DNA from: Lentisphaerae bacterium WC36
Lineage (GTDB): Bacteria; Verrucomicrobiota; Lentisphaeria; Victivallales; SZUA-371
Direction: 5' to 3'
Length of the DNA stretch: 64,000 nucleotides
Assembly: GCA_020683205.1 (NCBI GenBank)
Contig: CP085689.1
Location: 2,784,230 to 2,848,229 of the forward strand
Positions 36,680 through 37,367 of the stretch are shown here, in pieces (within the stretch, counting starts at the first letter, position 1; each line of letters begins with the position of its first letter). The position numbers and the translations under genes were made by a program. Below the pieces are notes generated by a model, which was not told the DNA's origin, did not search any database, and saw only the letters and a program-made list of their open reading frames with translations.

Positions 36680-36955
36680 AAAAAGATATTCCCTATTTAA
36701 AATTTCACAGTAAATAATATAACATATAGGAACTACTTATAAAAATAATATTTTTATTGTTTTTGCTTTTTGAATTTGTATTTCAAGCTTTTGAGTACTA
36801 ATTTTTAATACAATTGAAAATTTTTATATAGTGTTGCTTTCACTATTTCTGCGTTTTAGAAAAAAATCGCCAATTTTTAGACACAAAACGTTAGAGAAAA
36901 CTGAAAGACGTTCACTATATCTATATTGCTGTATATTAAGCTGTATTAAAATAAC
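36680..36955. other. Intergenic region upstream of the RNA candidate
   Basis: AT-rich sequence holding the divergent DUF2971 promoter. A small hairpin, ATAGTG-TTGCTTT-CACTAT near 36828-36846, is visible. Two open frames in the area (36831-37031 plus, 36936-37121 minus) have no ribosome site and contradict the RNA structure downstream, so I do not call them. Confidence 0.45.
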
Positions 36956-36977
36956 AATACGGTTCTATAGATATTTT

Positions 36978-37060
36978 GAGCGTATTCTTTTTCCATATTT
37001 GTGTCGGGGCGTTTGGCGATGCCTTTTCTAAGTGTGGAATTAATGAATACGCTCTTTTTT
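36978..37060 (+). ncRNA. Candidate structured RNA or attenuator, rod-like hairpin with terminal U-run
   Basis: GAGCGTATTC (36978-36987) pairs perfectly with GAATACGCTC (37045-37054), followed by six T. Inside, bases 36991-37001 pair with 37029-37039 over 11 positions including G-U pairs. An apical stem-loop (GGGGC 37006-37010 with GCCTT 37021-37025) caps it. A TATAGA at 36966-36971 is placed so that transcription could begin at 36978, giving an about 83-nt RNA whose ends pair. Alternatively AATACG at 36956-36961 can pair with CGTATT (36981-36986), excluding the terminator stem, as in an attenuator leader for the 67-aa gene at 37164. It matches no RNA family I can name. Confidence 0.55.
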
Positions 37061-37163
37061 GTGCATAAATTCCCATCAAAGAGTTTAATTTAAAAGGATT
37101 ACTGTTGCTGAATCTTAGCATAGCAACCGTCTAATCTTAACTTTTTATTAAGGAGAAATTATC

Positions 37164-37367
37164 GTGCTTCAAGACCCTTACCCAAAACATTATGCAAACG
37201 TTGAAAAACTAAAAAAAATCCTCATGCAAAGAGGCTTAGCAAACATGAACAATAATCAATTTTCAACTTTAGCAAAATTAAGCTCAACTAATGAAGAGCT
37301 CTGTAAAAAAATTATTGAGTCATTAATCATCAAAGAATTCGACAAACTAGTCAAAAATATACACTAA
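37164..37367 (+). CDS. Small protein of unknown function (67 aa)
   Basis: A GTG start preceded by AAGGAG at 8-base spacing, plus 67 hydrophilic residues with helical character (NVEKLKKILMQRGLANMNN, LAKLSSTNEELCKKIIESLII). No membrane segment or known motif. Good ribosome site and position behind the RNA/terminator at 36978-37060 argue that it is real, possibly controlled by that element. Function unknown. It converges with pyrH, with a shared terminator between. Confidence 0.6.
   Translation: MLQDPYPKHYANVEKLKKILMQRGLANMNNNQFSTLAKLSSTNEELCKKIIESLIIKEFDKLVKNIH

Follow-up and report, generated by a model that had tools for sequence, protein, structure and literature searches.

Two described systems offer the closest comparisons for the RNA analyzed here. 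In T-box riboswitches, a UGGN sequence pairs with the acceptor end of tRNA, while pT181-type attenuators respond to an antisense RNA made from the opposite strand, and orthogonal families of these have been engineered. From Lentisphaerae, Acido-Lenti-1 (RF01687; PMC2864571) has been listed as a candidate RNA. Here, we describe a structured leader in a stretch of 64,000 nucleotides (nt) from Lentisphaerae bacterium WC36 (contig CP085689.1, positions 2,784,230 to 2,848,229; hereafter the window), located ahead of a small open reading frame (ORF). Judged from its sequence, the element is probably a cis-acting transcription attenuator with an antiterminator arm specific to its own locus.

A preliminary description of this DNA had drawn attention to a hairpin followed by a T-run. 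The 10-bp stem (36978-36987/37045-37054) and the TTTTTT behind it (37055-37060) are located as claimed, and reading the sequence also confirmed TATAGA at 36966-36971, six bases ahead of the stem, and AATACG at 36956-36961. Together, these features proved to be only the 3' half of a leader of ~235 nt (36827-37060), which starts ~130 nt upstream of the start first given. In an alignment of own-genome copies, the conserved part opens with TATAGTG (36827), closes with the T-run (37060) and is preceded by a conserved AT-rich stretch. Since both sequence conservation and covariation are seen as far back as 36827, an isolated 83-nt small RNA with its 5' end at 36978, one of the two readings originally offered, is unlikely and was rejected. 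The region 36940-37170 folds at -63.0 kcal/mol, compared with -43.2 ± 4.0 kcal/mol for shuffled sequences (z = -4.9; 0 of 200 as low), and the whole element (36827-37066) reaches z = -5.3 (0 of 200 as low). Its parts are as follows.

36809-36814, plus strand: -10-like TACAAT, with a predicted transcription start near 36820
36827-36919, plus strand: P0, the 5' hairpin of fold T, formed by TATAGTG/CACTATA and inner stems, with a large loop that shows V1-V2-V3 (RNAalifold, 9 own-genome copies)
36856-36863, plus strand: V1 (TTAGAAAA), partner of V1'
36866-36873, plus strand: V2 (ATCGCCAA), partner of the loop V2'
36880-36887, plus strand: V3 (GACACAAA), partner of V3'
36908-36913, plus strand: a (ACGTTC), alternative partner of b
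36917-36974, plus strand: central dyad, ATATCTATA (36917-36925) with TATAGATAT (36966-36974), present in both folds (own-genome alignment)
36940-36963, plus strand: hairpin enclosed by the central dyad, GCTGTATT (36940-36947) with AATACGGT (36956-36963), present in both folds
36978-36987, plus strand: b, left basal arm of the terminator (GAGCGTATTC), which pairs with a or c
36998-37005, plus strand: V3' (TTTGTGTC), in the left arm of the terminator hairpin
37013-37020, plus strand: V2' (TTGGCGAT), in the apical loop of the terminator hairpin
37024-37031, plus strand: V1' (TTTTCTAA), in the right arm of the terminator hairpin
37045-37060, plus strand: intrinsic terminator, made of c, the right basal arm (GAATACGCTC, 37045-37054), and T6 (37055-37060)

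A search of the own genome with 36940-37170 returned 15 strong copies, ahead of different small genes. We built a covariance model, R1, from 9 distinct own-genome copies, leaving out 6 identical or near-identical ones. R1 recovered the same 15 copies at E ≤ 1.3e-40 together with 14 weak matches, with E between 0.018 and 3.9. The element is almost a palindrome, so 12 of the weak matches lie on the opposite strand of known copies. Model R2 gave 12 matches in the 3.66-Mb genome, all on the 15 known copies, and one match in the window. A DNA similarity search of relatives yielded chance-level matches only, outside the own genome; since DNA similarity between relatives is too low, covariance models were needed to follow the RNA further. 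It was found in 4 of 4 genomes of the family, 38 of 137 genomes of the order (R1, E ≤ 0.05), 103 of 197 of the class (R2, E ≤ 0.01) and 122 of 387 sampled genomes of the phylum (R2, E ≤ 0.001). Copy numbers from the order, class and phylum searches are minima because 7-15 candidates per genome were scored; with 150 candidates scored in each of 12 chosen genomes, we counted 1 to 16 copies per genome. A looser exact pattern matched five contigs, from uncultured Lentisphaeria and a Victivallales bacterium, groups that belong to Verrucomicrobiota in GTDB. No match to a 21-base exact pattern was obtained among the genome contigs or viral contigs searched, the viral contigs did not match the looser pattern either, and one query against plasmids returned nothing.

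Computationally, the conserved leader has two folds that exclude each other, and both covary. In fold T, P0 stands beside the terminator and b pairs with c; in fold A, V1-V2-V3-a (S1) pairs with b-V3'-V2'-V1' (S2) as a long rod, leaving c free. Covariation was evaluated on two alignments, A6 (19 sequences of the order, chosen by hand mainly for short length) and A7 (39 matches from 37 chosen sources across family, order and phylum). On A6, RNAalifold picked the rod unprompted; 22 of its 30 pairs carry double changes, and 94.0% of cells are paired, compared with 75.8% after shuffling (0 of 500 as high) and 38-48% when slid. The corresponding count on A7 is 28 of 30 pairs, in an alignment that leans toward fold A because it was fitted to model R2. 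For fold T on A6, double changes occur at 19 of 34 pairs, a number that none of 500 shuffles reached, with further pair types not above shuffles; in the P0 helix, 7 of 14 pairs carry double changes. Compensatory changes in homologous loci, whose lack the preliminary description had named as grounds for abandoning the structure, were therefore found. In 43 of 64 copies, a pairs better with b than with 95% of shuffled versions of b. In the window, folds A and T have energies of -68.0 and -67.0 kcal/mol, and an RNA ending just before c folds as the rod (-66.1 kcal/mol). Over 72 evaluable copies (12 of 84 were dropped), the energy of A minus T averages -3.6 kcal/mol, and 34 copies lie within 5 kcal/mol.

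These results refine the second original reading, in which an upstream arm switches the terminator of a leader. The switch is supported by the covariation of both folds and by close downstream genes, but the arm had been misplaced. The proposed competitor, AATACG, does form a small hairpin, but the conserved competitor is the 5' arm at 36856-36913, whose sequence complements both the left basal arm and the upper portion of the terminator hairpin. AATACG (36956) was rejected as the main competitor: its hairpin is kept in own-genome copies and, like the central dyad around it, missing from the shorter members. Signals expected at the two ends of such a leader recur across copies. Of 52 anchored copies, 31 carry a TA[TCA]AAT motif ahead of P0 (shuffles: mean 13.6, maximum 21; 13 of 65 copies were dropped as not anchorable), and the TACAAT at 36809-36814 suggests a transcription start near 36820. 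The terminal T-run measures at least 4 in 79 of 84 copies and at least 5 in 70 of 84. Two hallmarks of an attenuator can thus be read from the DNA alone, namely an intrinsic terminator between the -10-like motif and the gene, and a competing fold that excludes this terminator, is conserved by covariation and shares segment b.

We then compared the arms between copies. Each of the three 5'-arm blocks V1, V2 and V3 has its complement in the terminator hairpin (V1', V2' and V3'), and V1 and V3 vary between copies and match inside each copy. Among the 9 own-genome copies, same-copy duplexes average -33.9 kcal/mol versus -18.6 kcal/mol for cross-copy duplexes, with 0 of 100,000 permutations as good; the one exception is a single column, in which the L049 arm on L051 gives -33.3 versus -32.4 kcal/mol for its own. 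For 25 copies from 4 genomes, the means are -34.2 versus -17.9 kcal/mol, and the own partner is best in 24 rows and 22 columns (16 of 17 R1 matches from the family were used, omitting G001_C325a, whose 5' half is lost). Inclusion of the order (40 well-scoring matches fetched, 39 used, as two G135 copies shared a name) gave -35.6 versus -18.8 kcal/mol for 64 copies, with exceptions in 7 rows and 10 columns; some mis-picked S1 cores (e.g., G019, G112 and G129) are counted among both copies and exceptions. Comparable behavior was observed outside the class, where 20 of the listed matches, mostly the best-scoring, gave -43.2 versus -23.4 kcal/mol and the own partner ranked first in 18 of the 20 rows and in as many columns. 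Across the whole genome, the window's V3-V2 has an exact V3'-V2' partner only in its own leader and in a paralog near 604 kb. By eye, three copies from two genomes of one genus (L132, G077_C240; L148, G079_C387; L149, G079_C110) have nearly the same V3 with different V1, as if V1 and V3 had been exchanged separately.

The V blocks are also hypervariable relative to their surroundings. In 8 closely similar copies of genome G002, mean pairwise identity is 0.57 for V1, 0.38 for V3, 0.46 for V3' and 0.58 for V1'. By the same measure, the spacer up to the ATG reaches 0.97, three hairpin-arm segments 0.95-0.99, the central part 0.91, the beginning of the coding sequence 0.89, the linker surrounding V2 0.87 and upstream DNA 0.86; G002 is a metagenome-assembled genome of ~400 contigs, so some of these copies could be strain variants. 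The arms change faster than DNA that would be expected to be freer, and plain compensatory drift therefore offers no explanation. Selection for distinctness and some form of directed diversification are both options.

Together, these data suggest the following mechanism, in which we infer promoter use, termination and read-through. RNA polymerase would start near 36820 and make S1 first, which could be held in P0. As b, V3', V2' and V1' emerge, they may pair with S1 to form one long rod; the rod would tie up b before c is made, and transcription would therefore read into the downstream gene. Were S1 unavailable, whether in P0 or otherwise bound, the b:c hairpin and T6 would end the transcript at ~37060. 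Because the V blocks are hypervariable yet self-matched, the leaders appear to be insulated from their paralogs, suggesting that competition for S1 or S2 is open only to RNA of the same locus. Such RNA is the first candidate for an effector, since no conserved unpaired aptamer-like core was seen and the self-match is the copy-specific feature, but this assignment is speculative. A further step, tentative and rather doubtful, is that the copies are natural orthogonal RNA switches that recognize themselves. A terminated leader would expose its V loops on S1 and S2, bind nascent S1 of its own locus and favor termination, whereas a read-through transcript would hide both arms in the rod; the loci would be bistable, heritable and individually addressed, with V1 and V3 diversified against cross-silencing. 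If the arms act in trans, the outcome would be a locus-specific RNA memory; if they act only in cis, one must still ask why arms within a single molecule diversify more quickly than the surrounding spacer.

Several observations weigh against the attenuator with a locus-specific antiterminator. In 21 of 64 copies, the a:b pairing does not outdo 95% of shuffles; in the window it is marginal, as 10 of 200 shuffles are equally good, and the difference between folds A and T is widely spread (standard deviation 6.7). A run of 4 T is missing in 5 of 84 copies. No ORF was found for 5 of 56 gene-list entries, in all of which the contig ends within fewer than 100 bases, and a few of the ORFs chosen are open to doubt. 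Rapid change of V1 and V3 is not required by a purely cis mechanism, and two copies, L107 (G002_C8) and L154 (G079_C253), look chimeric and have lost their self-match. The 3' V blocks of these two copies resemble other copies of the same genome, and both are likely recombinants between copies.

We also considered that the leader is a free-standing, structured non-coding RNA (~235 nt) transcribed from a promoter and ended by a terminator of its own, its proximity to genes being incidental and its V helices drifting by compensation. The promoter-like motif in front, the terminator behind, the strong fold and the mutually unrelated downstream genes would all fit, but both mutually exclusive folds are conserved, b is common to the pairings with a and c, same-strand genes stand close behind most copies, and drift does not account for V blocks that far outpace the spacer, making this explanation unlikely. 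Two nearly equal folds are typical of ligand-tippable switches, and the similar energies of A and T could accordingly reflect a riboswitch-like leader, that is, the same attenuator with its choice tipped by a small molecule, protein, tRNA or temperature. We consider this very unlikely given linkers that are mainly A/T-rich, with no strictly conserved unpaired core seen by eye on A6, and downstream genes without a common pathway; for tRNA in particular, the core CC/GG is replaced with compensation in some copies of A7 (at column 48 in 5 of 39 copies and at column 49 in 4 of 39, one of them unpaired), unlike the UGGN of T-boxes. The U-tract, the -10-like element and the two alternative folds are features of RNA, which renders a DNA-level element, such as a recombination or transposition hairpin of the gene-cassette type, highly improbable, even though the copies are multiple and dispersed, with near-identical segments, different genes behind the same leader and self-complementary arms of free sequence. 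Moreover, no arrays were seen, the sites precede genes, the viral (exact patterns) and plasmid (one query) searches gave no match, and attC boxes were not recognized by eye, although no dedicated attC or integrase scan was included.

Beyond the terminator, the window contains two further features, both correctly placed in the preliminary description, with the hairpin ahead of AAGGAG and the GTG.

37104-37127, plus strand: second hairpin (GTTGCT, 37104-37109; AGCAAC, 37122-37127), between terminator and ribosome site
37164-37367, plus strand: 67-amino-acid ORF, the presumed regulated gene, with GTG start at 37164 and ribosome site AAGGAG at 37150-37155

The second hairpin is not conserved in the other copies read, and its role is uncertain. 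For the 67-amino-acid protein, no convincing homolog was found, the best Pfam match reaching only E = 0.065. Most copies have a same-strand gene behind them, often starting within ~150 nt, with exceptions. Downstream genes here encode small orphan proteins, and the same leader precedes different genes in the own genome. In G002, near-identical leaders (L101, L104, L106, L107 and L109) are followed by a paralogous family of ~137-145 amino acids without a Pfam match. Elsewhere, lipoprotein-like, SNase-like, CsgG-like, Sel1, C-type lectin and SHOCT-like proteins follow, several below Pfam cut-offs. In eight G002 copies (L101, L104-L107, L109, L111 and L113), a post-terminator GATACTTT is complementary, by eye, to AAAGTATC at the ribosome site, a pairing that could possibly provide a second, translational lock.

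The genomic setting of the copies varies. Five dispersed segments of the own genome (L052, L053, L055, L056 and L057; G000:C1 near 2.50, 0.38, 3.49, 2.25 and 1.77 Mb) each carry two tandem leaders; they are ~1.05 kb or longer and 93-99.8% identical, and the genes behind the second leader differ between L052, L053 and L055-L057. In one case (L133, G135:C1), a 5S rRNA gene lies ~360 bases upstream of the leader on the same strand. Many leaders in the G002 and G003 draft genomes (L101, L104, L105, L108, L109, L111, L112 and L113) are a few hundred bases from contig ends, and such assemblies may therefore undercount them.

No known family had been recognized in the preliminary description, and our Rfam search likewise produced no credible match. 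At gathering thresholds, Rfam 15 had no match at the element in the window and ten loci; relaxed thresholds gave seven implausible matches, well below gathering, and none at E up to 1 for six loci. Acido-Lenti-1 is itself in Rfam, and the element matched it neither at gathering nor, on six loci, at E up to 1. A T-box riboswitch was evaluated as a candidate and rejected, as the invariant UGGN was not found and Rfam returned no T-box match. Our literature search, which left subscription journals mostly outside, found no description of the element, and none of five taxon words occurs in PMC11109978. The element is thus a large structured RNA family, absent from Rfam 15, that extends across the phylum with up to 16 copies per genome (in 12 genomes counted), and it opens a route to studying how orphan accessory genes, many in number, are regulated. 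In type, it would be an attenuator; the family and its copy-specific, self-matched arms appear to be new. A many-copy leader with self-matched arms ahead of accessory genes points to a new family of RNA on/off switches.

The element shares some features with each of the two described systems. As in T-box and other terminator-antiterminator riboswitches, mutually exclusive antiterminator and terminator share one strand segment; unlike T-boxes, the element has neither the conserved T-box core nor a tRNA-binding UGGN, and its pairing arms vary by copy. It resembles pT181-type antisense attenuators (PMC3753616, PMC4878617) in that the leader has a terminator and a competing fold to choose from, RNA pairing decides, and altered pairing loops can yield orthogonal sets. 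It differs from them in that the antisense arm belongs to the transcript itself, and hence to the same strand, and in that mutually distinct copies occur naturally in one genome. The copies resemble a naturally occurring collection of transcription attenuators independent of one another, of the sort that synthetic biology had to engineer.
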